Assembly (NCBI GenBank): GCA_014649555.1 | Contig: BMTG01000026.1 | Span: 1 to 48,275, forward strand | DNA: 48,275 bases | Direction: 5' to 3' | Source of the DNA: Streptomyces globisporus | GTDB lineage: Bacteria > Actinomycetota > Actinomycetes > Streptomycetales > Streptomycetaceae | Shown: piece by piece, positions 12,959-32,154 of the stretch | Position numbering within the stretch: the first letter of the stretch is position 1 | Layout: each line of letters opens with the position of its first letter | Translations under genes and position numbers: made by a program | The notes under the pieces: model-generated | Databases searched by the model: none | What the model was told of the DNA's origin: nothing | The model's input: the letters and a program-made list of their open reading frames with translations, nothing else

Positions 12959-13567
12959 TCAGGTGGCGACGGGTTCGCGGTCCCGTGCCGCGCGCTCCAG
13001 GGCGTGCTCCACGACCGCGACCAGGACGTCGCGCACGGAGGACCGGTCGCGTGCGTCGCAGACGAGCAGCGGGACCTCGGGGTCGAGGTCGAGGGCGGCC
13101 CGTACGGTCTCGGTGGGGAACCGGTCGGCGCCCTCGAAGGTGTTGACCGCGACCGTGAACGGGATCCGCCGGCGCTCGAAGTAGTCGACCGCGGCGAAGC
13201 AGTCCTCAAGACGCCGGGTGTCGGCGAGGACGACGGCGCCCAGGGAGCCCTGGGCCAGCTCGTCCCAGAGGAACCAGAAGCGGTCCTGGCCCGGGGTGCC
13301 GAACAGGTAGAGGACCAGGTCCTCCCGCAGCGTGATCCGGCCGAAGTCCATCGCGACCGTGGTGGTCGTCTTGGACTCGATCCCCGCCAGATCGTCGACC
13401 GGGCGGCCCGCCTCGCTGAGGCGTTCCTCCGTGCGCAGCGGTCTGATCTCGCTGACCGCGCCCACCGCGGTCGTCTTGCCGACGCCGAACCCTCCCGCCA
13501 CCAGGATCTTCAGGGTGACGGGCTCGACGGGCCGCTGCTTGACGCGGCTAGAGCGCCCGAAGGCCAT
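12959..13567 (-). CDS. cvnD: Conservon small GTPase-like protein CvnD
   Basis: 202-residue Ras-like ATP/GTP-binding protein, the last member of the four-gene conservon. The P-loop GGFGVGKT is at about 25-32. ESKTTTTVAMDFG is the switch I-like region, LFGTPGQDRFWFLW the G3-like region (lacking the usual Asp), and VNTFEGAD the G4-like region. Conservon proteins form a membrane-proximal complex reminiscent of eukaryotic GPCR signalling, with CvnD as nucleotide switch; in S. coelicolor several conservons affect development and antibiotics. The start overlaps cvnC by 20 nt, so expression is coupled. Confidence 0.93.
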   Translation of the reverse strand: MAFGRSSRVKQRPVEPVTLKILVAGGFGVGKTTAVGAVSEIRPLRTEERLSEAGRPVDDLAGIESKTTTTVAMDFGRITLREDLVLYLFGTPGQDRFWFLWDELAQGSLGAVVLADTRRLEDCFAAVDYFERRRIPFTVAVNTFEGADRFPTETVRAALDLDPEVPLLVCDARDRSSVRDVLVAVVEHALERAARDREPVAT

Positions 13568-14000
13568 TGATTACCTCGCGAAGAATGTTCACGTCCGGCA
13601 GCTCGGCCGGTGGAACGGGACGGGTGACGTGCACCAGCTCGTCCTCGACGAGATCGCCGACGAGGACCCGTACCACCCCTACGGGGAGGTCGAGTTCGGC
13701 GGCGAGCTCGGCGATAGACTGGGGCCTGTCGCTGCAGAGTTCGACGATCGCCACGTGTTCGGGGGCGAGCGTCTGGTCCCGGCCGGGGTCGTCCGCGGCC
13801 GGTTCCGGCACGACGAGCGCGATCAGGTCGAGGCGGTGACGCGAGGCGCTGCTGGTCCGCCCCCGGGTCATCGCGTACGGCCGGACCACCGGTCCCGCGT
13901 CCGCGTCGTACCACCGGGAGGCCTGGGGGTCGACGGTACCGTCCGGGGATCCGGGACCGGTGCCCCGGGGGGAGTCAGCGCTCATGCCCGCCACGCTCAC
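13548..14000 (-). CDS. cvnC: Conservon DUF742 protein CvnC
   Basis: 150-residue DUF742 protein. A disordered N-terminus leads to VVRPYAMTRGRT, then a winged-helix-like segment (HVAIVELCSDRPQSIAELAAELDLPVGVVRVLVGDL), and ends in LPDVNILREVINGLRAL, all typical of CvnC. Its biochemical role is uncertain, but CvnC is thought to bridge the roadblock protein and the GTPase. The GTG start overlaps the cvnB stop (GTGA at 13997-14000), and the end overlaps cvnD. Confidence 0.93.
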   Translation of the reverse strand: MSVAGMSADSPRGTGPGSPDGTVDPQASRWYDADAGPVVRPYAMTRGRTSSASRHRLDLIALVVPEPAADDPGRDQTLAPEHVAIVELCSDRPQSIAELAAELDLPVGVVRVLVGDLVEDELVHVTRPVPPAELPDVNILREVINGLRAL

Positions 14001-14440
14001 CCTCCGGCGGGCATTCCGGTCGTCCGTGGGGCGTTGGCCAGGTGGGCCCCCACGCGCTTGACCATCAGCGTCATCTCGTACGCGACCTGGCCCACGTCGG
14101 AGTCGGCGTCGGCCAGCACGGCGAGACAGCTGCCGTCGCCGGCCGCCGTGACGAAGAGGAACGCCTCGTCCAGTTCGACGACGGTCTGGCGCACCCGGCC
14201 CGCGTCGAAGTGGTGGCCGACGCCCTTGGCGAGGCTGTGGAACCCGGAGGCGACGGCGGCGAGATGCTCACTGTCCTCGCGGGTCAGGTCCGCCGAGGCG
14301 CCGGTGGCGAGTCCGTCGCTGGAGAGCACCAGCGCCTTGCGGATGCTGGCGACGCGCTGGACGAGTTCGTCGAGCAGCCAGTTCAGTTCGCCCGAGCCGT
14401 GGCGGGCGGGGTTGTGTGCTGCGGCGTTCGGTGCGGTCAT
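13997..14440 (-). CDS. cvnB: Conservon roadblock/LC7 protein CvnB
   Basis: 147-residue roadblock/LC7-domain protein. LNWLLDELVQRVASIRKALVLSSDGL starts the fold, with the usual HFDAGRVRQTVVELDEAFLFVTAAGDGSCLAVLAD beta-sheet and VAYEMTLMVKRVGAHL helix. Such proteins act as GTPase-activating or scaffolding partners of CvnD-like GTPases. The ATG overlaps the TGA of cvnA (ATGA at 14437-14440), showing tight coupling to the sensor protein. Confidence 0.93.
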   Translation of the reverse strand: MTAPNAAAHNPARHGSGELNWLLDELVQRVASIRKALVLSSDGLATGASADLTREDSEHLAAVASGFHSLAKGVGHHFDAGRVRQTVVELDEAFLFVTAAGDGSCLAVLADADSDVGQVAYEMTLMVKRVGAHLANAPRTTGMPAGG

Positions 14441-17400
14441 CGACCGTCCCCTCCCGGAGTGGTTCCTGGTGCTGTGCCACCGGGGTCGCCGGTGTTCGCG
14501 GTGTCCTCGGTGGATTCGGCGGTTTCGGTGTTCGTGGTGGACGCGGCGTTCCCGGTCGTCCCGGTGTTCGCTGCGTTCTCGGTGGTCTCGGCGTTCTCCC
14601 GGCGGCCGCGCTGCCAGCCCCGCTGGAGCGAGGCCATACGGTTGCGGACCTCGTCCGCGTCGCGATCGGCGTCGTCGAACGTGTCCACGGGCGCCCGCTG
14701 CACCGTGCGCTCCGCGGAGTCCTCACGGAGCTGGCGGGCGAGGCTGGCCTGCCGGACCCGCCGGGGCAGCCCGCCGATGGTGTCGGGCGCCGGTGGGGCG
14801 GCCGTCACCGGGGCCTCCTCGCGCCCGGACCCCGGCGCGCGGGGAGGCTCGGGTGCGTGCGACGGCTCGGTCGAGCGGGATGATCCGGTCGAGCGGGACG
14901 GCCCGGTGGTGCGGGACGGCCCGGTGGCGCGGGAGGCATCCGGCGTACGGGAGGCGTCAGATGTGCGCGCGGCGTCCGGCGTACGGGAGGCGTCAGATGT
15001 GCGCGCGGCGTCCGGCGTACGGGAGGCGTCAGATGTACGGGAGATGCCTGGTGCTCCGCGGTGGGCGGCGGCTCGCACGGTCCAGGGGGCGTCGGCGGTA
15101 CGGGGCCCGTCGGCCTCCTCGGGGGCGCGGTCCGCGGTGTGCGGGACCGGTCCTGTGGCCTTCGCGGGAGGCGTGGTCGCGTCGTCGTCCGCCGCGTCGA
15201 CCCGGCGGCCCCGGTCGGTGACCAGCGTCGGCGGGGTGCGGCGGGGCAGCGGTACGGGCCCGGCGGGGCGCATCGGGCGGACCTCCGCCGTGGGCTCGTC
15301 GCCGTGGTCGCGGGCCTGCTGGTGCTGGTCGGTGTCCCGGCGCCGGCGGCCGCCGGGCTTGTCGCCGCGGGGCTCGCGGTCGCCGTCGCGGCGCACGTCC
15401 CGGGCGCGGAAGATGCCGCCGCGCTCGCTCTCGGTGTCCTCCAGATCGGACACACCGTCCAGGACGGGTCCGAGGGCCGGGTCCAGGGCCGGGTCAGGTG
15501 AGCGGTCCAGGGGGTCGCCGGCGAAGTCCAGCCTGCCGACCGGGGCTTCCAGCTCGACCGGCCCGTCGAGGACGCCCGGCCCGGTGAGCCCGGTGGGCAC
15601 CGGCGACAGAACCGCGGACCTGCCGTTGACGCGGCGCTCCCCGCCCTGGGCCGCGCCCGGCGCGCCCGGCGCCGGCTCGGGGTTCCGGCCGCTGCCGATG
15701 GCGCGCTCGGCCCGGCGGTCCAGGCGGAACCCGGTGCCGTGGGTGTCGGGGGCGTCGGTGAGCAGGGCCGCCGGGATGAACACGACTGCGGTGGTGCCTC
15801 CGTACGGCGATTTCTGGAGGGAGACCCGGACGTTCTGGCGCTGAGCGAGCCGGCTGACGACGAAGAGGCCCAGCCGGTCGGTGTCGGAGAGCTCGAAGTC
15901 GGGCGTCTCGGCGAGTCGCAGGTTGGCGTCGAGGAGGACCTCGGGGGCCATACCGAGACCGCGGTCGTGGATCTCCAGCGTGAAGCCGTTGGAGACGCGT
16001 TCACCGTGCACCTGGACCGCGGTGTGCGGGGGTGAGAAGACGGTGGCATTCTCCAGGAGTTCGGCGATCAGGTGGGTGAGGTCGGCCACGGCGGGTCCGC
16101 CCACGCCGATCCGGGCCAGGCGGCGGACCTCGATGCGTTCGTAGTCCTCGACCTCGGCGACGGCGGCCCGCACCACGTCCATCAGCTGGATGGGCTTGCG
16201 CCACTGGCGGGAGGGGGCGGCGCCGGAGAGGATCACGAGTCCTTCGGCGTGCCGCCGCATGCGGGTGGTGAGGTGGTCGAGGCGGAACAGGTCGGCCAGT
16301 TCGTCGCTGTTCTCGGTGCGGCGCTCCATCGCGTCCAGCAGGGTGAGCTGGCGGTGCAGGAGGACCTGGTTGCGGCGGGCGAGGTTGACGAAGACCTCGG
16401 AGACACCGCGCCGCATGTCCGCCTGCTTGACCGCGGCCTCGACGGCGGCCCGCTGGAGGGTGTTGAGCGCCTGGCCGACCTGGCCGATCTCGTCGGGTTC
16501 GTAACTGAGATGCGGGGCCTCGGTCTCGACGTCGACCTGTTCGCCCGCGGCGAGTCGGCGCATCACGCTCGGCAGCCGGACGCCGGAGACCTCGTGGGCG
16601 TCCTTGCGCAGCCGGGAGAGGTCGCGGACGAGTTCACGGCCGATGCGGACGGAGACGAAGATCGAGACGATCAGGGCGAGGAAGCCGAGGATCCCGGCGA
16701 TCCCGGCCTGGGCGAGGACCCGGTAGGCGGCCGGTTCGGCGCGGTCCTGGAAACGGTTGCCCATCTCCGTGGAGTCGCCCGCCAGCCGGTCGAGGACGGG
16801 CACGGCCGCCTCGTCCCAGCGGTCGGCGTCGACGGCGCCGGGGCGCTTCGTCGGCCCGGCGCCGATCAGGGCGTCCTCGGCGGTGCGCAGCGGTTCGGTG
16901 TCGGGGCTGCCCCAGAACTGCTCGACGCGGCGGCGTTCGTCGGCGGGGAGGTTCTCCAGGCTGACCTCGTAGAGCAGCTCGCGCTGCGCCACGAGGCCGG
17001 ATATCCGGCGCAGTTCGGCGGTGGTGAAGCGGCCGGCGATGAGGCCGGAGGCGATGAGCGCGTCCTCGCGCGAGAGCATCTCCCGGGCCCGGGAGATCCC
17101 GACCAGGGCCCGCATCTGCTTGTCCATCGAGACGTTCTGCAGGGTGTGGAGCCCGTTGAGGAAGCGGTACGAGGGGTCGACGAGGCCGTTGTAGAAGTCC
17201 AGCGCCTTGGCTCGGCTGATGGTGCGCTTCTCGACCGATTCGCGCAGGGCCTCCAGTCCGTCGACGGCGCTCAGGATCGCGTCCAGTCGGCTGCTGTCGG
17301 CGGCGCTCAGCGAGTCCCGGACGTCCTGCTCCCGGGCGTTCTCCCTGACCTGGCTCACGATGCGGTCGGTGGCGGCGCGTTGGCCCATGAGGACGGGGAG

Positions 17401-17643
17401 CGCGTCGGAGGCACGGGGGTCGGCGAGGAAGACCAGGGTCTGCCGTCGCTCGTCCTGGACGGCGCGGACGGCGTCCTCCAGCGGTTCGCTCACCTTCTCC
17501 ACGATGGATCCGGCGCTCATCAGTTCGTCGGCCTGGCGGCCGGTGATGTAGGTGGCGAAGACCCAGAGGCCCGTGAGGGAGACGAGCGGCACCAGCAGCA
17601 ACGCCACGATCTTCCTGCGGATGGACTTCCCGCGAAAGCGCAT
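14437..17643 (-). CDS. cvnA: Conservon sensor histidine kinase-like protein CvnA
   Basis: 1,068-residue membrane sensor heading the conservon. TM1 (about 12-33) and TM2 (about 310-335) flank an extracytoplasmic nitrate/nitrite-sensing (NIT)-type domain with DERRQTLVFLADPRASD. A HAMP segment follows, then helical SEVFVNLARRNQVLLHRQL and an HATPase domain with N-box ELLENATVF near 530 and DRGLGMAPE near 560. No canonical phospho-acceptor H-box is evident, as usual for CvnA. The last ~450 residues are low-complexity, rich in R, S, T, P and D, and contain a 12-residue tandem repeat. ATG 17643 follows GGGGGAGG. The tail is long for this family, which is worth checking. Confidence 0.92.
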   Translation of the reverse strand: MRFRGKSIRRKIVALLLVPLVSLTGLWVFATYITGRQADELMSAGSIVEKVSEPLEDAVRAVQDERRQTLVFLADPRASDALPVLMGQRAATDRIVSQVRENAREQDVRDSLSAADSSRLDAILSAVDGLEALRESVEKRTISRAKALDFYNGLVDPSYRFLNGLHTLQNVSMDKQMRALVGISRAREMLSREDALIASGLIAGRFTTAELRRISGLVAQRELLYEVSLENLPADERRRVEQFWGSPDTEPLRTAEDALIGAGPTKRPGAVDADRWDEAAVPVLDRLAGDSTEMGNRFQDRAEPAAYRVLAQAGIAGILGFLALIVSIFVSVRIGRELVRDLSRLRKDAHEVSGVRLPSVMRRLAAGEQVDVETEAPHLSYEPDEIGQVGQALNTLQRAAVEAAVKQADMRRGVSEVFVNLARRNQVLLHRQLTLLDAMERRTENSDELADLFRLDHLTTRMRRHAEGLVILSGAAPSRQWRKPIQLMDVVRAAVAEVEDYERIEVRRLARIGVGGPAVADLTHLIAELLENATVFSPPHTAVQVHGERVSNGFTLEIHDRGLGMAPEVLLDANLRLAETPDFELSDTDRLGLFVVSRLAQRQNVRVSLQKSPYGGTTAVVFIPAALLTDAPDTHGTGFRLDRRAERAIGSGRNPEPAPGAPGAAQGGERRVNGRSAVLSPVPTGLTGPGVLDGPVELEAPVGRLDFAGDPLDRSPDPALDPALGPVLDGVSDLEDTESERGGIFRARDVRRDGDREPRGDKPGGRRRRDTDQHQQARDHGDEPTAEVRPMRPAGPVPLPRRTPPTLVTDRGRRVDAADDDATTPPAKATGPVPHTADRAPEEADGPRTADAPWTVRAAAHRGAPGISRTSDASRTPDAARTSDASRTPDAARTSDASRTPDASRATGPSRTTGPSRSTGSSRSTEPSHAPEPPRAPGSGREEAPVTAAPPAPDTIGGLPRRVRQASLARQLREDSAERTVQRAPVDTFDDADRDADEVRNRMASLQRGWQRGRRENAETTENAANTGTTGNAASTTNTETAESTEDTANTGDPGGTAPGTTPGGDGR
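14936..15043. repeat. Three 36-bp tandem repeats inside cvnA
   Basis: Units at 14936-14971, 14972-15007 and 15008-15043. The first two differ at one position near the 5' end; the third matches its first 29 nt and then diverges. Being a multiple of three, the array encodes in-frame copies of a 12-residue unit, read as DASRTPDAARTS, in the disordered tail (about residues 867-903). Degenerate shorter repeats (SRTTGP, SRSTG) continue beside it. Confidence 0.9.
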
Positions 17644-18099
17644 GGCCTCCCCCAGATCGGCCCCGCACGGCGGCTGCGGGGATCGCCCCCGCGCGGTGGC
17701 TGCGCGGGTTGTCTTCTCCGTCAATAAACGGCGCGAGCCTACTACTGACACAGAGACAACTCGAAGACACGTCCGGATGATTTTCAGCCGTCCACCCTGG
17801 AGTTGATCATGAGTTGTCCCGGTTTTCCCGGAGATGAAATTCGCGAAAGCGACAGAGGGCACCGGCCGGACTCCTCAGCACCGGCACGTATCAGTTGGCT
17901 GGAATTCTTCGCTCCGTGACCTTCTGTGCCCTGCGCGTGCTTTTTCAGGGGAATCTTCGGGACGGGTGGTTCGTCCATATGTACGGGGTAGGCGCACGGT
18001 GGGGTCGTGCGCGGCAGGACGGACGTGTTGCGCCCGCGTAGAACCGGCGCAAGCCGGGCAGCCACCCTGAAGTCGGACAGTGGCGGGGAGTTGAAGACC
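17644..18099. promoter_or_regulatory. Divergent control region upstream of cvnA
   Basis: A 456-bp, relatively AT-rich gap between cvnA and the rightward small membrane-protein gene. GAGTTG is repeated 11 bp apart (17800-17805 and 17811-17816). GACAACTC at 17755-17762 is the exact inverse of GAGTTGTC at 17811-17818. TTCGCGAA, a perfect palindrome, lies near 17838. These look like regulator-binding sites, but no specific regulator can be named and no clear promoter hexamers were assigned. Confidence 0.45.
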
Positions 18100-18570
18100 T
18101 TGAGTACGCAGGAACGCGGGGGCGCCGGAGCGCCGGCTGCCGCGCGGACGGAAGCCGCGGAGGGGGCACGGGTCCCGCGGCAGTTGTGGGTGGAGGAGCC
18201 GGCCTCGAAGCGGCGGATGCCCGATGCGGTGCGGACGGCCGCCGTGCGCGCCGTTCTGATCATGTCGGTGACGATCATCCAGGCGATGGTCGCCTTTCTG
18301 AGCACGTTGGCCGGCTCCTGGCTGGCCTTCCCGATGGTGCTCAGCAGTGTGGCAAGCACGGTGGTCGCCACCTGGGCGGTGCTCGACGTCTGGGTCACCC
18401 GGCAGGTGTGGAACCAGCGCAACGGCGTGGTGTCGGTGCCGAGCAGCACGGCCCGCCAGATACGCCGTGAGCGGCGCCGGTCCCGCCGGGCCGAGCGGGC
18501 GGCCGAGCGGGACGGCACGGGTGGTGGCATAGACGGCCGCCGGAGCACCGGCGGCCTCTCCCGCGCCTGA
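18100..18570 (+). CDS. Small two-TM membrane protein of unknown function
   Basis: 156-residue protein. A disordered alanine/glutamate-rich N-terminus (about 1-45) is followed by two hydrophobic segments (AVLIMSVTIIQAMVAFLSTLAG and WLAFPMVLSSVASTVVATWAVLDVWV, about 50-105) and a very basic tail (RRERRRSRRAERAAERD), which should lie in the cytoplasm and could contact nucleic acid or acidic lipid. TTG 18100 is chosen because GGGGAG lies 9 nt upstream. It is divergent from cvnA and convergent with the SMC-like gene. No family is recognised. Confidence 0.72.
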   Translation: MSTQERGGAGAPAAARTEAAEGARVPRQLWVEEPASKRRMPDAVRTAAVRAVLIMSVTIIQAMVAFLSTLAGSWLAFPMVLSSVASTVVATWAVLDVWVTRQVWNQRNGVVSVPSSTARQIRRERRRSRRAERAAERDGTGGGIDGRRSTGGLSRA

Positions 18571-18620: not shown

Positions 18621-18652
18621 CGGGCCGCCGTCGGCCGCTCCCGGCCCGGCGG

Positions 18653-21600
18653 TTACGCCTCGGGCTCCGGGGCGGCCGGAGGCTCGGTCGTGGTCGGCGG
18701 GGTCGCCGGGGGCCCGGCGGCGGTCTGCTCGTTCCGCTTGAACATCCGGGTCGCCGTGATCTCGCCGTGGACCGTCTCACCCTCCGGGTCCTGCTGCGGC
18801 AGCCCGGGCCGCAGATGCTCCTCCACGCTGATGTACTTCAGCCCGGCCCTCAGGTCGGCGTCGTTGCGCAGCCGGATGACGAGGGGGAATTCGGCGAGCG
18901 CGGTCGTGTCGAACAGGCCTGTCGTGTAGAGGAGTTGGACGCCCAGCGCGTCCGACACGGCACGCTGGAGCTCCAGCAGATAGGTGGCGTTGGCGCGGCC
19001 GATCGGGTTGTCGAGGAACAGGGTGCCCGCGTGCCGGTGGCGGTCGCGGCCCCGGTCGTTGCTGCGCAGGGCCGCCATCGTGCAGTAAAGGGCGATGGCG
19101 GCGGTGAGCAGCTGACCGCCGGAGAAGACGTCGCCCATCTGCCCGACCGGGACGCGCTCGGCGCGCAGCACGGCGTCCGGCTTCAGGATCTCCACCGCGA
19201 TGCCCTTGGGCCGCAGGGCCGCCTCGACGCCCCGCAGCAGCAGGGACATGCCGTCCCGGCGCAGATCGGAGTTCTTCCTGAGGGCGGCGCTGGTGGCCTC
19301 GTCGATGACCTCGCCGAGGCGTTCGGTGAGGGTGGCCTGGTCGGGTTCCTCGAAGCGGATGCGGAGGAACTCCTGCCCCGACCACTCCCCCAGTCCTTCG
19401 GGGAGCTGGGAGAGCCGCTGGGCGGAGCGCAGGGTGGTGAGCGCCGACTCGACGAGTCCGCGCAGCCGGTCCACGATCGAGTCGCGGTTGCGCTCGAGCT
19501 GGACCAGTTCGTCGGTGAGGACCCGCAGCCGGGGGGCGAAGGCGTCGGCCCACTTCTGGGCGTGCTCGGGCAGCGCGGAGGCGGGCAGTTCGCGGATCTG
19601 CTGGCGGGCGGGGGTGCGGACCTGTTCGTAGCGGGTGGAGTTGGCGTGCCGGACGAGGATGTCGCTCGCTTCCCTCACGGCGCTCTCGGCGGCCGAGAGG
19701 TCGGCGTTGCAGCCCCGCAGGGAGCGGCGGGACTCGGCGGCGGACTGCCGGGCCTCCTCCAGGCTGCCGGGGTACGGGTCGGGGTCCTCGGTGCCCTCCT
19801 CGGCGCCGTGGTCGCGCAGGAGGTCCCGCAGGAGGGCCGCGGTCTCGTCGAAGCCGCCGGCGGAGTCCCCGGCGGTGCGGTGGGCGTGCAGCAACTCGCT
19901 GTGGGCGGCGCGGGCGGTGTCCAGGGTGGCGGTGGCGTCGGCCAGTTCGGCGTTGGCGGTACGCAGGAGGGCCTGGGCCCCTTCGGCGTCGGCCGGGACC
20001 AGGTCGTCCGGCAGCTCGGTGTGGTGGGGACGTTCGTCGTCGGGGGCGAGCCGTTCGGCCTCGCCGCGCAGCCGGCCCAGGTGCTCGCTGGCGGTGGAGG
20101 CGCGGGTCTCCAGGAGCTGGACGTGTGCTTCGGCGCGGGCGGCGGCGGCCTGGCGGGACGGTCCGTCGGCTCCGTCGGTGCCTTCCAGGAGCTGGGCGGC
20201 GCGGGTGCGGACCTTGTTGGTGAGGCGGTCCAGCTCGGCCAGGGCGGCGCTCTCGTCGCTCTCGGCGCGGGCCTGTTCGGCGCGCAGGTCGGCGCCGACG
20301 CCGACCTTCTCGTACAGCTGGGACGCGGCCCGGTAGGCCTCGCGTAGGGTGGGCAGGGCGGTGCGGGCCTTCGACTCGTCCTCCTCGGGGAGGACTTCGG
20401 GGACGCCGGCGATCTCGGCGCGCTCGGCCCGCAGGGCGCGGGCGGTGCGACGGGCGTCGTCCCCGGCGCGCTGGGCGGCGCGGCGGTCCTCGTCGGCGGC
20501 GCGGGCGAGGTCGAGGCAGACGGCGGCGCGGGCCTCGGACTCGGCGGCCTCGTCGACCAGTTCGCGCAGGCGGGCCTGCCAGCCGGAGCGCTCGCGGAGC
20601 CGGTGGGCGAGTCCCGCGAGGGCGTCGGCGGCGCGGCGGGCGCGCTGGGCGGCCTCCTGGCGCTCGTCGCGGACCCGGGCGGTGTCGGCGGCGGCCTCGT
20701 CGGCCTCGGCGCGGGCGGTGCGGGCCTCGGCGAGGACGGCTTCGGCGCTCTCGACGGCCGTACGGGCGGTGGCGGCGGCCTCGGCCAGTTCGGCGAGCAT
20801 GCCGGGCGGGCAGTCGGCGCGCCACGAGCCGATGCGGGACGCGAGGGCACGGTCGCCGGAGAGGCGGGCAGCCAGCGTCCTGATGTCCTCGTCGCGGGCG
20901 GCGGCACGGCTGCGCAGCGCGTGGCGCTCCTCGTCGGCGGCGTGTTCGTCGTGCATGGCCGGGTTCGGCGGGACGAGGAAGACGCCGTCGCTCGCGGACT
21001 CGGAGCCGGTGCCGGGAGCCGGGACGGGGGCCAGGAGGGCGGCGGCGGTGCCGACGGCCACGGCCGAACGGGGCAGCAGAGCGGCGCCGGCGAGGACTTC
21101 ACGGGCGCGGGTGTGGGCGTCGGGGTCGGTGATGACGACGCCGTCGACGAGTTCGGGGCGGGCGGCGAGGACCGCGGCGTGGTCGGCCGGGTCGACGGCC
21201 TGCGCGAGGTAGCGCCAGCCGGGCAGGGCGGGGATGCCGTGCTCGCCGAGGTATTCGACGGTGGCCAGCACGTCGGGGCCGGGCGGCAGCAGCCCGCCCT
21301 CGCCGAGCGCGCCGAGGATGCGGGCGTCGTCGGCGGCGGCGGTGCGCAGGTCGAAGAGGCGGCGTTCGGCGGCGGCGACGGACTGGTCGAGGAGCTCGCG
21401 CAGCTCGTCGGCGCTGCGGTCGAACTCCTCGGCGGTCAGGGGCTGCTGGGCGGTGGGCTGGTCGGCGAGGGCGACGGCGCGGTCGGCGGCCGGTTCGGCG
21501 GCGGGGGCCGTGCCGTCGTCGCCGTTCCCCGGGCCGGTGCGTGCCGTGGCGCCCTGGGCGGATCCTGACGTCTCGTCGGCGGCTTCCCGGCGGGGGTGCG

Positions 21601-23458
21601 GGACGCCGGTGCCCGAGGGCAGGCCGAGGAGGTCCGCGAGGCGGGGGTCGGCGGCGATCGACGCGGCGGCCAGGTACTCGTCCTCGTAAGCCCGCTCCGC
21701 GGCCTTGGCGCCGTCGGCGGCGCGGGCGGCGGCCAGTTCGGCGCGGCTCTCGGCGGCGGCCGCCTCGCGGGCGGTGCCGGCGGCGGAGCGGGCTGCTTCG
21801 CGGGCGGTGTCCCACGCGGCGACGGCGGACTGTTCGGCGTCGCTGGCGGCGAGGGCCGCGCGGGCGGGGTCGGCGTCGGGAGCGGTGTCGTCGAGCCAGC
21901 CGGCCCGGACGGCCTCGGCGGTCTCCTGGCCGACCTCGGCGAGGCGCTGGCGCAGATGTCCGGCCTCGCTGCGGGCGCGCTGGGCCTCGGTGGCGGCGAC
22001 CGTCGCGTCGCGGTGGGCGCGTTCGCCGGTGGCCTGGAGGGTGTCGGAGCGCTCCTCCTCCTCGTTGGCGAGGCGTTCGCCCTCCTCGGCGGCCTTGTGC
22101 AGGGCGCGGACGAGGTCGGTGGCGGCGGCGGAGCGGGCGGCGAGGGCGGGGGCGGCGTCGCGTTCGGCCTCGCGGATGGCGGCGGCGACCCTGGCCGAGC
22201 GGTCGGCGGCGGCGCGGTGGCGCAGGACGGCTTCGGCGGCCTGCCAGGCGGCGTGCAGGGTGCGGGCCTCGACCAGCTCCTTGCGTCCGGCGGCGGCGTT
22301 CTTCTCGGCCGCGGTCAGGGCCAGTGAGGCGTGCCGGTAGGCCAGTTCGGCGGCGATCAGGGCGCGGCGGCCCCGGGTGGACTCGGCTTCGGTGACGGTG
22401 TGGGCGGCGGCGGTGACCCGCTCGGCCAGCTCGGCGGTGCGGCCGCGCTCCTCGGCGGCGCGGGCGGAGAGGCGGCGGGCCAGGGTGCGGGTGCGCCGTT
22501 CGGCCCCGGCGTGGATGTCGCGGGCCCGGGTGCGGGTGTCGGTGGCCTCGACGATCCGGCCGAGGAGGTCGACGGAGCCCGCGGTGAAGTCGCGTTCGGC
22601 GGTCAGCTCGGCGCGGCGGCCCAGTTTGTTGCCGAAGCCGCTGACCAGGTCGGCGAGGCCGTCGGTGTCGCGGGTGTCGGTGACGGCGCGGAGCAGGAGG
22701 TCGGTGAAGTCGGAGTCCTTCTTCACCGCGAAGAGGCCGGCGGCCTCGCCCTCGTCGGCGTTCATCTCGCGCTGGTAGCGGAAGAGTTCGGGGTCGAGGC
22801 CGAGGTCACCGAGGTGTTCGTTCCAGCGGTCGTGGATCTCTTCCCAGTGCACGTCGAGGTGCGCGTAGAACTTGCCCGCGTCCGTCAGCGCGTCGCGGAA
22901 GCCCTTCATGGTGCGCCGCCTGCCTCGGGCGCCGGAGACGCCTTCGGCGGGGCGGCCCACGGCGGATGCCTCGGCGACGGGCAGGCTGTCCAGGCTGAGC
23001 CCGGGTCCTGGGCGGAACGAATACCAGGCCTCGGCGAACTTGCGCGGATCGTTGGAGACCTGGCGGCCCCGCCATTCGCTGACCTTGCCGACGACGACGC
23101 ACTCACCGGTGAGGGTGTGCTGCCACTCCAGGGCGACGTGCCCGCAGTCGTCGGCGAGGAGGAACTTGCGCAGCACGCCGGAGCTGGCCCCGCCGAGGGT
23201 GTTGCGGTGGCCGGGGAGCATCACCGAGAAGATCAGCTTGAGCAGGACGGACTTGCCGCCGCCGTTCTCCAGGAAGAGGACGCCCGCGGGCGCGGGGCGG
23301 CGGGGCGGTCCGACCGGCTCGTCCTCGAAGAACTCCGCCTGGGCGGGCGCGGGGTTGGGGACGGGTGCGCCGACGCCGCGCAGGTCGAGGACGGTGTCGG
23401 CGTAGCGCGCACCGGCAGGCCCGATGGAGTAGAGGCGGACCCGGGACAACTCGTACAT
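18653..23458 (-). CDS. Large SMC-like coiled-coil ATPase (MksB/MukB/JetC-like)
   Basis: 1,601-residue protein with SMC architecture. The N-terminal head carries a P-loop LENGGGKS (63-70; the usual first Gly is Leu63). Long Ala/Glu/Arg-rich coiled coils lie at about 300-600 and 885-1340. Between them, at about 605-860, is a globular hinge-like domain containing GEHGIPALPGWRYLA and VDGVVITDPD. The C-terminal head has FSGGQ (ABC signature, Ser1446-Gln1449) and Walker B TLFLDNPIG with Asp1483 followed by Asn1484, where SMC proteins have the catalytic Glu. It is the third gene of an operon with kleisin-like and winged-helix-like genes. The set resembles MukBEF, MksBEF and Wadjet JetABC, which extrude DNA loops. 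The ATG at 23458 (MYELSRVRLY) starts the head strand. Confidence 0.85.
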   Translation of the reverse strand: MYELSRVRLYSIGPAGARYADTVLDLRGVGAPVPNPAPAQAEFFEDEPVGPPRRPAPAGVLFLENGGGKSVLLKLIFSVMLPGHRNTLGGASSGVLRKFLLADDCGHVALEWQHTLTGECVVVGKVSEWRGRQVSNDPRKFAEAWYSFRPGPGLSLDSLPVAEASAVGRPAEGVSGARGRRRTMKGFRDALTDAGKFYAHLDVHWEEIHDRWNEHLGDLGLDPELFRYQREMNADEGEAAGLFAVKKDSDFTDLLLRAVTDTRDTDGLADLVSGFGNKLGRRAELTAERDFTAGSVDLLGRIVEATDTRTRARDIHAGAERRTRTLARRLSARAAEERGRTAELAERVTAAAHTVTEAESTRGRRALIAAELAYRHASLALTAAEKNAAAGRKELVEARTLHAAWQAAEAVLRHRAAADRSARVAAAIREAERDAAPALAARSAAATDLVRALHKAAEEGERLANEEEERSDTLQATGERAHRDATVAATEAQRARSEAGHLRQRLAEVGQETAEAVRAGWLDDTAPDADPARAALAASDAEQSAVAAWDTAREAARSAAGTAREAAAAESRAELAAARAADGAKAAERAYEDEYLAAASIAADPRLADLLGLPSGTGVPHPRREAADETSGSAQGATARTGPGNGDDGTAPAAEPAADRAVALADQPTAQQPLTAEEFDRSADELRELLDQSVAAAERRLFDLRTAAADDARILGALGEGGLLPPGPDVLATVEYLGEHGIPALPGWRYLAQAVDPADHAAVLAARPELVDGVVITDPDAHTRAREVLAGAALLPRSAVAVGTAAALLAPVPAPGTGSESASDGVFLVPPNPAMHDEHAADEERHALRSRAAARDEDIRTLAARLSGDRALASRIGSWRADCPPGMLAELAEAAATARTAVESAEAVLAEARTARAEADEAAADTARVRDERQEAAQRARRAADALAGLAHRLRERSGWQARLRELVDEAAESEARAAVCLDLARAADEDRRAAQRAGDDARRTARALRAERAEIAGVPEVLPEEDESKARTALPTLREAYRAASQLYEKVGVGADLRAEQARAESDESAALAELDRLTNKVRTRAAQLLEGTDGADGPSRQAAAARAEAHVQLLETRASTASEHLGRLRGEAERLAPDDERPHHTELPDDLVPADAEGAQALLRTANAELADATATLDTARAAHSELLHAHRTAGDSAGGFDETAALLRDLLRDHGAEEGTEDPDPYPGSLEEARQSAAESRRSLRGCNADLSAAESAVREASDILVRHANSTRYEQVRTPARQQIRELPASALPEHAQKWADAFAPRLRVLTDELVQLERNRDSIVDRLRGLVESALTTLRSAQRLSQLPEGLGEWSGQEFLRIRFEEPDQATLTERLGEVIDEATSAALRKNSDLRRDGMSLLLRGVEAALRPKGIAVEILKPDAVLRAERVPVGQMGDVFSGGQLLTAAIALYCTMAALRSNDRGRDRHRHAGTLFLDNPIGRANATYLLELQRAVSDALGVQLLYTTGLFDTTALAEFPLVIRLRNDADLRAGLKYISVEEHLRPGLPQQDPEGETVHGEITATRMFKRNEQTAAGPPATPPTTTEPPAAPEPEA

Positions 23459-23525
23459 GGCGGCGGACTCTCGTCGTTCGGTGAGCGGGGGTGGAGCGGC
23501 GGGGGGGTGTGCGTGTCGGTCGGGG

Positions 23526-24536
23526 TCAGGAGTGGAAGGGCAGGCCCGCGTCGGCGGCCAGCTCCACACTGTCGGGGTCGGGGGGCGGCAGCAGGGTGGC
23601 GGAGCCGTCGGTGACGAGGACGACGCCGAGCTCCAGCAGTTCCGCCATGGCGGCGCTGCCCGCGAGGTCACGGACCTGGAGTTGGTAGCGGGCGGTGGTG
23701 CGGTAGGCGCCGCCCGCGTCGTCGCCGGTGCGCTGGAGGAAGCCGGAGTCGGTGAGGAAGGCGACGGCCTTGCCGATGATGCCGGTGGTGGATCCGGCGA
23801 GCCGGCGGGCGTCCTTGGTGGCGCCGGTGGCGCTGCGGCGGGCGTAGATCCGCCAGCCGGCTTCGAGCCCGGGGGCGTCGCTGACGGGGTCCGTGTTGTC
23901 GCCCTGTTCCTCGGCGCGCTCCTCCAGCCGACGGCAGGCCTGGCGTACGAAGGCGTCGACGCCGTTGACCGTGATGCGGCCGATGTACGCGTCGTCGGCG
24001 AGGTCCTCGGGGCGGGGGAAGGCGAGGGCGGCGACGGCGAGGTGGGCGAGGCCGTGCAGGAAGCGGTCTGCGGCGTCGGAGGAGGCGCGGCGGGCGTAGT
24101 CGCCCATGCGGACGGCGAAGACGGAGTCCTCGCCCGCTGTGACGGCCATCCCGGCGCGCGGGGAGACCTCCAGGACGATGAGACCGAGGCCGGTGGCGAC
24201 GGCGTCGGCGAGCCGGGCGAAGGCGCTCTCCTCCCGGTAGCGCCGCAGGAGGTCGGCGTATTCGGCGTCGCGGGCGGGCAGCAGCTTGGGCTGGAGCCCG
24301 AAGGAGACGAGCCGGGCGGCGTCGGCGGCGTCGGCCGGGGTGACGGGGGTCTGTCCGGCCGGAGTGACGGCAGTCTGTCCGGCCGGCTCGGCGGTGTGCA
24401 AAGAGCTGGTGTGCGGAGAGCTGTGCGCGGAGTCGGGCCCGTACGGCGTGGAGGGAGCCCCGTACGTCGTGGCGGGGCCGGCGTGCGCGGAGGGCTCGGT
24501 CCACGCGTCGGGGTGCTCGGCGTCGTGGTCGCTCAC
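23526..24536 (-). CDS. Winged-helix SMC accessory protein (MksE/JetB-like)
   Basis: 336-residue protein. A disordered Pro/Ala/Thr-rich N-terminus (about 1-70) is followed by YADLLRRYREESAFARLADAV and GLGLIVLEVSPRAGMAV, resembling the first winged helix of JetB/MksE proteins. Further helical sequence follows (GRITVNGVDAFVRQACRRLEE), then a second winged-helix-like region (TTGIIGKAVAFLTDSGFLQ...YRTTARYQLQVRDLA). In MukBEF and Wadjet this subunit binds the kleisin and DNA. GTG 24536 has GAGGAG 8 nt upstream. It lies 97 bp after the kleisin-like gene and 67 bp before the SMC-like gene, in the order A-B-C of Wadjet. Assignment is by pattern and context. Confidence 0.78.
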   Translation of the reverse strand: MSDHDAEHPDAWTEPSAHAGPATTYGAPSTPYGPDSAHSSPHTSSLHTAEPAGQTAVTPAGQTPVTPADAADAARLVSFGLQPKLLPARDAEYADLLRRYREESAFARLADAVATGLGLIVLEVSPRAGMAVTAGEDSVFAVRMGDYARRASSDAADRFLHGLAHLAVAALAFPRPEDLADDAYIGRITVNGVDAFVRQACRRLEERAEEQGDNTDPVSDAPGLEAGWRIYARRSATGATKDARRLAGSTTGIIGKAVAFLTDSGFLQRTGDDAGGAYRTTARYQLQVRDLAGSAAMAELLELGVVLVTDGSATLLPPPDPDSVELAADAGLPFHS

Positions 24537-24633
24537 GGCTGGGACTCCTCGGTACGGAAAGGGTGGTGCGGGTGGGGGGAGCGGGCGGCGGGGCCGGCCT
24601 CGACGGGAGAGGCGGCGGAGGGCGCGGGGCCGG

Positions 24634-26163
24634 TCACGAGGCCTCCTGGCGGTCGGCGGCCATCCCGACGGCGTCCAGCAGCGCGGTGCCCACGATGAGG
24701 TCGGCACCGCCGAACTCCGGGTCGTCCAGCTCCGCACCGTCGTCCACGGCGAAGAGCAGGCGCCGCTCGCCCTGGCGGTAGGCGGTGCCGACGGGCGGGC
24801 TGGCGGCGTGGACGGCGAGCAGGGCGACCAGGTACGGCAGGTCGGTGTCGCCGGTGCGGCGGGCCTCGGCGAGCAGTCCGGAGAGCCGGCGCGGGGCGTC
24901 GTGCTCCAGGTCGAGCAGGGTCATGGCGCGGGCGAGCTGCTCCTCGCTGAACCGGCTGTCGTCGGGGGTGGCGATCAGATCGGGCTCGGGCATCTCCGCG
25001 CCCAGGTGCTCGCGCTCCAGCGGCGGGGTGAGCAGCAGGTCGACCAGGTCCCCGATCCGTACGGAGGTGGGGGTGCGCAGTCCGGTGCCGTGGGCGAAGA
25101 AGGCGTCGGTGGCCCGGGTGGACTGCTCGACGGGGAGCGGGAGGAGCGGGGCGAGGAGCTGCCCGTACAGATCGAGGCCCGCGTGGGGGGCGGGCGGTGC
25201 GAAGGCCTGGCGGTCCTGTTCGGCGCGGAAGAGGGGACCCGCCTCCAGCAGCCGGGACTGGAGCTGGGTGTGGCGGCGGATGCAGTCCTTGACGATGTCG
25301 ACGAGCTCGGCGGCCCGGCGCTTGTGCTCGGGGTCCTCGGCCTCGTCGCGGGCCTTGCGGATGTTGGTGAGGATCGCGTTCTCGTGGCGGTAGCGGTCGG
25401 CCACGTGGTCGAGGGCCTCGGCGATCATGTCCGGGACGGTGTGGAGCCAGTCGACGGCGCGGACGTTGCGCCGGGTGGCCTCCAGGGTGCGGCGCAGGGT
25501 CTCGGCATACTGCACGGTGCGGTAGCGGGCCTGTTCGGCGGCGAGCTGGGCGTCGGCGAGACGGCCCCGGCTGATGAGGACCTCCAGCTTGACCTCGGCG
25601 GCGATCTGGGCACTGGTGACATCGGTGTCCAGCGCGCCGACGAGGACGTTGACCGCTTCGTCGGTGGCGCGGAGGTAGACCGTGCCGCCGTAGCCGGGGA
25701 CCTCTTCGATGAGCTTGAAGTCGTAGTCGCGGCGGACGTAGACCCCGTCGGTGTTGAAGGTGCCGTAGACCGCGCGGAAGCCCCGGTCGACGCTGCCGAC
25801 GTTGATCAGGTTCTCCAGGACCCAGCGGGCGACCCGTTCGTGTTCGGCGACGGGGCGGTCGGGGGCCTGGGCGGCGATGCGGGGCAGCAGCCTGGCCACT
25901 ATCTGGTCGTGGTCGGCACCGGTGTCGAAGTCCATGTTGAGCGTGACGTGGTCGATCGCGGCGAGGGCGACCTCCGCCATGGCGTACACCGTGTACTCGC
26001 CGGCCAGATTCGCCTTGCGGACGTCCAGGTCGTGCAGCGGAGCCGTGCACGCGAGGGCGCGCAGCCGCCGCGAGAGCCCCTCGTCGGCGGCGGGCCCCGG
26101 GGCAGGCCGCGGCCCCGCGCTGAGCTGCGGCGCAGCGGTGTCCGTGTTGGCAGGCGAAGTCAC
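24634..26163 (-). CDS. Kleisin-like SMC partner (MksF/JetA-like)
   Basis: 509-residue, mainly helical protein. After an extended N-terminus comes VYAMAEVALAAIDHVTLNMDFD and a winged-helix-like region. YGTFNTDGVYVRRDYDFKLIEE and TVYLRATDEAVNVLVGALDTD follow, then a long helix, IAAEVKLEVLISRGRLADAQLAAEQ, with further coiled coil to about residue 310. This layout matches JetA/MksF, the kleisins that clamp the two SMC heads. It is the first gene of the operon. GTG 26163 is chosen because TAATCT lies 7 nt upstream with TCGACC 18 bp further out, suggesting leaderless transcription. The operon starts 72 bp behind the 5-oxoprolinase gene. Confidence 0.78.
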   Translation of the reverse strand: MTSPANTDTAAPQLSAGPRPAPGPAADEGLSRRLRALACTAPLHDLDVRKANLAGEYTVYAMAEVALAAIDHVTLNMDFDTGADHDQIVARLLPRIAAQAPDRPVAEHERVARWVLENLINVGSVDRGFRAVYGTFNTDGVYVRRDYDFKLIEEVPGYGGTVYLRATDEAVNVLVGALDTDVTSAQIAAEVKLEVLISRGRLADAQLAAEQARYRTVQYAETLRRTLEATRRNVRAVDWLHTVPDMIAEALDHVADRYRHENAILTNIRKARDEAEDPEHKRRAAELVDIVKDCIRRHTQLQSRLLEAGPLFRAEQDRQAFAPPAPHAGLDLYGQLLAPLLPLPVEQSTRATDAFFAHGTGLRTPTSVRIGDLVDLLLTPPLEREHLGAEMPEPDLIATPDDSRFSEEQLARAMTLLDLEHDAPRRLSGLLAEARRTGDTDLPYLVALLAVHAASPPVGTAYRQGERRLLFAVDDGAELDDPEFGGADLIVGTALLDAVGMAADRQEAS

Positions 26164-26170
26164 GTGGGAC

Positions 26171-26200
26171 AGATTAGGTCCTCGCACTGACAACGGTCGA
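26171..26200 (-). promoter_or_regulatory. Candidate leaderless promoter of the SMC-like operon
   Basis: On the minus strand, TCGACC (26195-26200), an 18-bp spacer and TAATCT (26171-26176) are followed 7 nt later by the GTG start. The -10 is close to consensus, and no Shine-Dalgarno is present at proper spacing. Confidence 0.5.
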
Positions 26201-30555: not shown

Positions 30556-31974
30556 TCAGACGGCCGACGCGTCCGGCCCGATCCGGCTGCGCACCGCCGT
30601 CTGGACCTCGGCCTCCTCGGCCGGGTCGGCGGCGAGGCGGCGCAGGCGTTCGGCGACGCGGATGTCACCGGTCTCGGCGTGCAGGGCGGCCACCTCGCGG
30701 GTGGTCTCCTCGCAGTCCCAGAGGCACTCCACCGCGAATCCGGTCGCGAAGGACGGGTCGGTGGCGGCCAGGGCGCGGGCGGCCCTGCCCCGCAGGTGCG
30801 AGGAGGACGTCTCGCGGTACACGTGGCGCAGGACGGGGGCCGCGCAGGCGATGCCGAGGCGGCCGGCTCCGTCGACGAGGGTCCACAGCCGGGGGGCGTC
30901 GGGTCCGTCGCCGCGTACGGCCTCCCGGAGCGCGCCGAGGACTTGGGGAGCGTCCTGGGCGGTGCCTCGGCAGGCGAGCACTCCGGCGGCGGAGGCGCCG
31001 AGTGCGTCGGGGCGGTGGGCCCAGCGCCTGGCCCGCCCGACGGCGGCGTCGCCGGTCATCCGCTCGAAGGCGGCGATGGCCGTGTGGGCGACGGTGCGGG
31101 AGGGGCTGACGGCGGCGGCCTCGATGAGGTCGAGGACGACGGGTTCGCCGGCTTCCGCGAGGTAGTGCAGGGCGGCGCAGCGGGCGCCTTCGGGGCCGCT
31201 GCGGGCGGCCTCGACGATCTGGGGAAGGTCGTCGGGTCCGGCGACGGCGGTGAGGCAGCGGGCCGCGGGGACGTGCAGTTCGCTGCCGCGTTCCAGGGCC
31301 TGCTGGGCCCAGTCGAAGACGGCCTGGACGCTCCAGCCGGGGCGGGGACCCCCGGGGCGCATCTGGCGCTGCCATCGGTCGAACGAGCCCTGTTCACCGG
31401 CGGCCCGGACGCGGGCGCCGACCGCTTCGCGCGGGTCGTCGGCCCACAGGCGCCAGGGGCGCGGCTCGAAAGAGTCGCGTACGGCGGCGGCGAGGTCGGC
31501 CGCGCCCTGGTCGGTGGCCGGGAAGCGGGCGAGGACGGGCAGCGCGAGGGAGCGCAGGCCGGCGTCGTCGTCGCGCAGGGCCAGCTCGTCCAGGGCCCAG
31601 GTCCAGTTGGCGCCGGTCGTCGCGTAGCGGCGGAGGAGGGCCAGGGCGTCGTCGCGTCCGTAGGAGGCGAGGTGGCCGAGGACGGAGAGCGCCAGACCGG
31701 TGCGGGAGTCGTCGGTATCGATGGGGTCGTCGGGATCGGCGAGGTGCCGCTCGATCTCCTCGATACCGCCGTCGAGGTCGAGGTAGAGGCGCGCGTAGTA
31801 GAGGGAGCGGTTCTCCAGCTGCCAGTCGTGGCGGGGGTCGCTCACGACGCAGTGGTTGAGGGCCGCGAGGGCCTCGGGGCGTGGTGCGGCGAGCGCGTGG
31901 AGCGTGCCGTCGCCGCGGCCCCTCTGCAGCAGACCGAGCAGGGTGCCGCTCGGCGCTATGAACGGATCGAACAT
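30556..31974 (-). CDS. HEAT-repeat protein
   Basis: 472-residue soluble alpha-solenoid protein. Repeated helical pairs of HEAT/PBS-lyase type run throughout: LALSVLGHLASYGRDDALALLRRYA, ELALRDDDAGLRSLALPVLARF, LPQIVEAARSGPEGARCAALHYLAEAG and LRGRAARALAATDPSFATGFAVECLWDC. Such proteins mediate protein-protein contacts, and no catalytic motif is present. ATG 31974 has GTGAGG 9 nt upstream. Function is unknown; neighbours are DUF4240 and ankyrin-repeat proteins. Confidence 0.85.
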   Translation of the reverse strand: MFDPFIAPSGTLLGLLQRGRGDGTLHALAAPRPEALAALNHCVVSDPRHDWQLENRSLYYARLYLDLDGGIEEIERHLADPDDPIDTDDSRTGLALSVLGHLASYGRDDALALLRRYATTGANWTWALDELALRDDDAGLRSLALPVLARFPATDQGAADLAAAVRDSFEPRPWRLWADDPREAVGARVRAAGEQGSFDRWQRQMRPGGPRPGWSVQAVFDWAQQALERGSELHVPAARCLTAVAGPDDLPQIVEAARSGPEGARCAALHYLAEAGEPVVLDLIEAAAVSPSRTVAHTAIAAFERMTGDAAVGRARRWAHRPDALGASAAGVLACRGTAQDAPQVLGALREAVRGDGPDAPRLWTLVDGAGRLGIACAAPVLRHVYRETSSSHLRGRAARALAATDPSFATGFAVECLWDCEETTREVAALHAETGDIRVAERLRRLAADPAEEAEVQTAVRSRIGPDASAV

Positions 31975-32154
31975 GGGAGAAAGCCTCACATCAAGCTGTC
32001 GACGCAACCGGGACTGTGCAGTGCCCCGTGCCTCTCGGCACGCGGGGGTGTCCGGGGGACACCGTTACGCCGCGCAGTGACATGATCGGCCGACCGCCGT
32101 CTTTCGCCTGGTGTAGAGCATCTTCCTCTGCCTCTCGTCGGTGGCCCTGAGCGG

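Follow-up and report, generated by a model that had tools for sequence, protein, structure and literature searches.

What does a structural maintenance of chromosomes (SMC) complex of the Wadjet type do when no gene for the nuclease JetD accompanies it? This question is raised by a three-gene operon, jetABC, in a 48,275-nucleotide (nt) stretch of Streptomyces globisporus DNA (assembly GCA_014649555.1, contig BMTG01000026.1, positions 1 to 48,275), referred to as the window in the following. A preliminary description had placed three leftward genes in the Wadjet order at positions 18653-26163, and both the reading frames and the order were borne out. The promoter ahead of them did not form part of that description and had been missed. 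The features in question are:

24634 to 26163, reverse strand: jetA-like gene, kleisin (JetA3/MukF-like), 509 amino acids (aa), GTG start
23526 to 24536, reverse strand: jetB-like gene, KITE-like winged-helix subunit, 336 aa, GTG start preceded by GAGGAG
18653 to 23458, reverse strand: jetC-like gene, type III SMC ATPase, 1,601 aa, ATG start
26171 to 26193, reverse strand: promoter of the RecA-NDp/PafBC type, TTGTCAGTG-N8-TAATCT, 7 nt ahead of the jetA GTG

We slightly favor the reading that jetABC represents a type III Wadjet SMC complex which was stripped of JetD and domesticated as a near-core, DNA-damage-induced complex acting on host DNA. Such a domesticated complex would be the most economical account of the observations described below.

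The family assignment was obtained by scanning the window proteins against PADLOC, Pfam and NCBIfam. The 1,601-residue protein, already described as SMC-like ATPase, matched the PADLOC family JetC3 (PDLC00588) with 1,399 bits and the putative kleisin matched JetA3 with 627 bits, both far above chance. At E ≤ 10 these two proteins gave type III families only; JetA1 and JetC1 of the type I Wadjet/MksBEFG systems were not among them, and the label MksFEB, i.e., type I, had to be abandoned. JetC carries the motifs ENGGGKS (Walker A), FSGGQ (signature) and LFLDNPIG (Walker B). Profile searches, which had been proposed for all three subunits, failed for the third one, as JetB gave no PADLOC match at E ≤ 10. 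From two complete systems, one JetB gave no PADLOC match and the other just an E-value of 0.017, and JetB of a nuclease-less Frankia operon matched JetB3 with an E-value of 0.0021. Clear homology nonetheless links the window JetB to its counterparts in nine complete systems (L061-L069; 31-51% identity over 231-261 aa), which together with the JetA3 match is in keeping with the earlier designation of the two small subunits as kleisin-like and winged-helix-like. The operon hence shares with type III Wadjet systems the JetA3 and JetC3 families, the gene order, a homologous JetB as well as the signature of JetC and a Walker B in which Asp is followed by Asn, whereas it differs from them in having no JetD, in being near-core and mostly syntenic while the systems with JetD are accessory, and in a JetB extended at its N-terminus. 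ABC ATPases usually carry the catalytic Glu right after the Walker B Asp. In the LDNP of JetC (window positions about 18650-19000), Asn was observed at this place, and this Asn is common to the compared type III JetC proteins, nuclease-bearing and nuclease-less alike.

The JetC protein had no Pfam match, and PF02463 (SMC_N) matched 32 times in the S. globisporus genome and never at the jetC locus when the best 150 of 201 candidates were scored. A canonical SMC match is present elsewhere in this genome, apart from jetC, which would suit a rival reading in which jetABC encodes a constitutive second condensin, organizing the chromosome beside SMC-ScpAB in the manner of MksBEF or MukBEF. The predicted structures point in the same direction, the JetA model being MukF-like and the JetB model, weakly, MukE-like. 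Differences from MukBEF are that sequence searches of the PDB with the window subunits gave no SMC, kleisin or KITE match, with none of the solved MukB, MukF and MukE chains being hit within the limits applied, and that the operon coexists with SMC. A Foldseek search of the JetB model against the PDB yielded no match at E ≤ 0.001, and a scan for parS allowing up to three mismatches gave no match as well.

For the search for JetD, a hidden Markov model (HMM) was built from 15 type III JetD proteins, because the Pfam profile JetD_C (PF09983) misses some of these proteins; for instance, PF09983 gives no match in genome G007, yet this genome carries a type III JetD (L065, 15693-16883). A scan of the S. 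globisporus genome with PF09664 matched nowhere, not even in the controls, and is uninformative. In agreement with the preliminary description, the six-frame open reading frames (ORFs) of at least 60 aa in the window contained nothing that matched the type III HMM at E ≤ 1. Among 115 loci comprising the JetC C-terminus, in which some Frankia genomes occur twice, the HMM detected JetD in 17, which are the accessory copies, and gave no match in 98, of which 92 extend at least 3 kb beyond JetC. A JetD linked to the trio in close relatives, which the preliminary description had named as contradicting its view, was thus not encountered. Across the 150 Streptomyces genomes, JetD_C matched in 19 and the type III HMM gave 12 strong and 3 weak matches, and both profiles pooled yielded a JetD-like match in 23. 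A nuclease encoded elsewhere in the genome, as suggested previously, is therefore not what was found for most species: 124 of the 147 JetA-bearing genomes had no JetD-like match to the two profiles, other nuclease families lying outside their reach. S. globisporus itself belongs to the 12 genomes with a strong match and does encode JetD elsewhere, but this JetD sits inside a separate, complete JetABCD III operon (G000:C3, about 384,249-392,140; L061, 2253-10144). At least two JetA matches were present in all 12 strong-match genomes vs. 3 of the 138 others, more than one JetA match in 15 of the 150 genomes (patchy accessory copies). The JetD-bearing copies have 26-61% JetA identity, and JetABCD was also met on a Rhodococcus linear plasmid. 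In the Frankiaceae, the JetD profile matched in 12 of 35 genomes, four times with at least 240 bits and once with 133 bits. A partial JetD match in one Frankia genome (G381:C82:12060-12584) lies on a contig that differs from that of its JetABC and is possibly a remnant. Since JetD, a defining part, was searched for and not found, the operon is, as judged by gene content, itself not a Wadjet system, but derived from one.

With regard to its distribution, jetABC is a near-core operon of the Streptomycetaceae. JetA was matched in 147 of the 150 Streptomyces genomes, among them G121 weakly, and in 80 of 81 genomes of the family, with 79 of the 81 at 74% identity or more; the exceptions are G158, which holds just a 26% copy, and G216 without any match. 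Ninety-nine core-type loci were examined; at least 6.5 kb follow JetA in 81 of them, and JetB and both JetC heads are present in 80 of these 81, in support of the trio being near-core across the Streptomyces sampled. In a sample of the class, JetA matched in 44 of 296 genomes (28 from Streptomyces itself, 15 from a single other family, and a marginal match), where distant copies may be missed because at most five candidates were scored per genome. By named records the other family is the Frankiaceae, and 19 of 35 Frankiaceae genomes have any match. Fifteen genomes of the same order from two other families contained no orthologue-level match, and two of them, probably filamentous Catenulisporaceae, carry copies of 33-44% identity. 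Both the 0/15 orthologue-level matches within the order and the patchiness in the Frankiaceae speak against a constitutive second condensin, as does a conserved promoter of a stress-inducible type, and we regard this rival as improbable. The preliminary description had considered a condensin for multigenomic hyphae; this rationale is weakened, because the same-order genomes have no orthologue-level copy while the Frankiaceae share the operon in part.

The stretch ahead of jetA points to DNA damage. On the reverse strand it reads TTGTCAGTG-CGAGGACC-TAATCT-GTCCCAC-GTG, which agrees without any mismatch with the consensus of LexA/RecA-independent DNA-damage promoters, given in PMC5656591 as tTGTCRgtg-8 nt-TannnT. 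In mycobacteria, PafBC acts through this RecA-NDp promoter, according to the available part of PMC6789036. When the pattern tTGTCRgtg-N8-TAnnnT was scored on its 12 positions, the jetA site was the sole match in the window at up to one mismatch, with 0.03 matches expected. The S. globisporus genome contains 24 exact sites and no site of the reversed control pattern, and all 41 genomes of the genus (the own and 40 further ones) hold 11-44 motif sites each vs. 0-1 control sites. Among 163 distinct upstream regions of the core operon, 57, 29, 39, 36, and 2 regions show 0, 1, 2, 3, and 5 mismatches, respectively; the 161 regions with at most three mismatches compare with 4-7 mismatches in control stretches farther upstream. 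The best match lies 3-40 nt ahead of the reference start in 155 regions, and the first in-frame ATG or GTG follows exactly 7 nt past the motif in 151 of the 161, a fixed spacing that suggests the geometry of a leaderless transcript. As in the PafBC (RecA-NDp) regulon, the exact motif is common to jetA and to recA, uvrB, and ruvC of the same genome. The two jetA genes account for two of the 24 exact sites, a further site has no ORF behind it under the rule applied, and two others share a gene; among the 20 ORFs that remained and were scanned, seven are repair- or replication-like, namely UvrB, a RecD2-type HHH protein, RuvC, a DEAD helicase, RecA, an HhH-GPD protein and a beta clamp. The last of these, a DNA polymerase III beta-clamp protein encoded at L285 1569-2687 (forward strand) downstream of a RecA-NDp site, is possibly a second, damage-inducible clamp.

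Several points weigh against a domesticated, damage-induced complex. The motif is exact in just 57 of the 163 upstream regions and deviates at two or three of 12 letters in 75, often with TGTCAGAC replacing TGTCAGTG, so that the response in some species may be weaker or of another kind; the regions, moreover, come from related species and are not independent. The motif was not found upstream of the Frankiaceae copies, and the link to damage is therefore not general to nuclease-less JetABC. Of 18 nuclease-bearing systems, nine are preceded by the motif at up to two mismatches within 460-nt stretches; it is hence not specific for repair and could mark damage-inducible defence. Thirteen of the 20 ORFs behind exact sites are not recognizable as repair genes (five belong to other families, eight had no match), the choice of ORFs being automatic and some of them probably not the actual genes behind the sites. 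The operon is also not strictly universal, since 3 of the 150 Streptomyces genomes lack a JetA match and a locus of G012 (L073, 4990-6330) holds a shortened core JetA with JetB and JetC absent from the following 11 kb; by its gene content, G012 is one genome where the operon has been lost. The predicted models are of low confidence, with a predicted local distance difference test (pLDDT) score of 47 for JetB and 53 for JetA. Finally, a paper on LexA in S. venezuelae reports that the PafBC motif of M. smegmatis seemed, in an initial search, not to be conserved there (PMC9380542). As a separate observation, all 41 Streptomyces genomes sampled clearly contain the PafBC/RecA-NDp motif, contrary to this suggestion. 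Likewise on its own stands the observation that the JetABCD III operon of S. globisporus is preceded by an exact RecA-NDp promoter (C3:384170-384192); on the basis of such motifs, damage-inducible anti-plasmid defence may occur in Streptomyces.

The missing JetD and the broken operon of G012 could also be expected of a Wadjet system that is decaying after the loss of its nuclease. Compared with 11 to 15 relatives, the median ratio of nonsynonymous to synonymous substitution rates (dN/dS) was 0.115 for JetA, 0.138 for the conserved part of JetB and 0.19 for JetC; for the neighboring oxoprolinase and conservon kinase it was 0.224 and 0.375, respectively. Judged from these ratios, jetABC is subject to purifying selection. 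All three ATPase motif strings of JetC are intact in 79 of the 80 whole-operon Streptomycetaceae loci. Because of this conservation, together with the near-universal retention, a decaying remnant is extremely improbable. Both nuclease-less groups kept nearly all columns that nuclease-bearing systems conserve, namely 74 of 82 in JetA, 32 of 34 in JetB, and 48 of 54 and 57 of 64 in the N-head and C-head of JetC; when residues were sought in this comparison whose loss might mark a former JetD interface, almost none proved to be lost. A start shift in JetB is, as far as the gene predictions tell, one difference that tracks the loss of the nuclease. The window JetB has an N-terminal extension of about 63 aa, which is mostly missing from JetB of nuclease-bearing systems. 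In 118 core loci, which are not independent, 100 have a jetB start with a Shine-Dalgarno-like motif and 18 have none; 96 of these 100 starts sit more than six codons upstream of the conserved edge and four do not, and 30 of the 118 loci have any start codon within six codons of this edge. For nuclease-bearing systems, 17 of 18 jetB starts lie within six codons of the edge and one at 15. In type I Wadjet, the contacts made by JetD include a motif at the N-terminus of JetB, according to a review (PMC10586767), and the contact reported for C. glutamicum in the accessible part of PMC10123090 is the kleisin.

The gene families suggest that jetABC is of type III JetABCD ancestry followed by loss of JetD. 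In a tree of JetA (56 rows), both nuclease-less groups, i.e., Streptomycetaceae and Frankiaceae, are united with a support of 88 in the Shimodaira-Hasegawa-like approximate likelihood ratio test (SH-aLRT). In a combined tree of JetA, JetB and the JetC heads, for which four distant rows and six thinning rows (one of them cut by a contig end) were dropped, five nuclease-bearing systems adjoin the Frankiaceae (support 96/89), which implies two losses of JetD or one loss and one regain. A single nuclease-less clade was not rejected by the approximately unbiased (AU) test (p 0.265). The link of the motor to DNA damage may predate or postdate the loss of JetD, both being possible because the damage promoter also occurs ahead of some JetABCD III copies.

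For the domesticated complex, the following course of events can be envisaged. A leaderless jetABC transcript would begin at the RecA-NDp promoter, and PafBC should therefore switch the operon on upon DNA damage. The JetA kleisin, the JetB KITE subunit and the JetC SMC motor would assemble as a chromosomally fixed complex, whose intact ATPase would drive DNA entrapment or loop extrusion of the SMC type on the cell's own damaged DNA, so that broken or stalled molecules might be compacted or tethered during repair. Since the effector is gone, an encounter with circular or damaged DNA would no longer end in cleavage. Gene content, ancestry, conservation, the absence of JetD, the motifs and the promoter motif with its geometry were read directly from the sequence; we infer that the operon is induced, where its transcript starts, that the complex assembles, which DNA it acts on and that it serves repair. 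Smc5/6 complexes are tied to DNA damage. It is a tentative idea, somewhat doubtful at present, that type III Wadjet minus its nuclease could act in Streptomycetaceae as a damage-induced bacterial equivalent, in function, of Smc5/6, extruding or clamping damaged DNA of the host, with the JetB extension placed at a docking site like that of type I; the likeness is one of functional analogy. The above-mentioned review moreover connects Smc5/6, itself an SMC complex, with extrachromosomal circular DNA (PMC10586767).

In a further rival reading, jetABC would defend the cell without a nuclease by recognizing small circular invaders through extrusion and then silencing or compacting them, similar to Smc5/6, or passing them to an effector in trans, and the damage promoter would arm this defence upon the appearance of foreign or broken DNA. 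The JetD-bearing relatives are indeed complete JetABCD systems (on the Rhodococcus linear plasmid and in S. globisporus itself), nine of 18 of the nuclease-bearing systems share the promoter type, and nearly all columns conserved in defence machines are retained. However, jetABC is near-universal and occupies a mostly fixed chromosomal place, unlike the patchy accessory copies, JetB gained its N-terminal extension, and in B. subtilis all four Jet subunits are required to suppress plasmid transformation, as stated in the available text of PMC10586767. We consider defence of this kind unlikely, although not markedly so.

The surroundings of the operon are in part syntenic as well. They consist of a conservon-type cluster (12959-17862), which we take to be a cvn cluster, and an oxoprolinase/hydantoinase gene, and are not the classical housekeeping genes mentioned previously. 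Two further neighbors are:

18007 to 18570, forward strand: convergent neighbor of jetC, small ORF resembling a membrane protein, this character being read off the sequence
30556 to 32007, reverse strand: upstream syntenic gene, ORF with TTG start, weak similarity to HEAT repeats (HEAT_2 at 23.5 bits, where the curated cut-off is 27.7)

The small ORF had no Pfam or NCBIfam match. Among named Streptomycetaceae loci with enough flank, counterparts were found for this ORF in 36 of 54, for the HEAT-like gene in 52 of 57, for the conservon kinase in 31 of 50 and for the oxoprolinase in 13 of 60. At those Frankia loci whose flanks were long enough (4 to 8), none of these four neighbors was found, and the genomic place is therefore common to the Streptomycetaceae alone. 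Eukaryotic kleisins have HEAT proteins as partners, and the HEAT-like gene syntenic with jetABC may serve as a loose lead towards a kleisin partner.

Among known complexes, MksBEF of Pseudomonas aeruginosa, likened here by description only, is also an SMC-kleisin-KITE complex without nuclease, whereas the window operon combines families of type III with a promoter of the RecA-NDp type; MksBEF, which likely arose by loss of JetD (PMC10586767), sets a precedent for giving up the nuclease. A survey of actinobacterial defence systems reports Wadjet in 42% of Actinobacteria, often towards the ends of Streptomyces chromosomes, and JetD is unmentioned in its main text (PMC10482375). The accessible literature on the PafBC regulon, with bioRxiv and most subscription papers lying outside the search, places no Wadjet-like SMC operon there, and in the available literature mentioning both Wadjet and PafBC no link between them was found. 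Searches for DUF3584, JetC or MukBEF-like proteins with Frankia or Streptomycetaceae gave no title on a nuclease-less operon among the matches listed, and a search for orphan or incomplete Wadjet systems gave no title on such an operon.

The findings suggest that Streptomyces has a regulon of the RecA-NDp type, although the initial motif search that was published came out negative (PMC9380542), and the jetA promoter predicts when the core JetABC is made. In the accessible text of the Wadjet review, the action of JetABC on the chromosome and the interconversion of defence SMC complexes and condensins are named as open points (PMC10586767). With a near-core nuclease-less JetABC and, in some of the same genomes, a complete JetABCD, Streptomyces represents a natural experiment.

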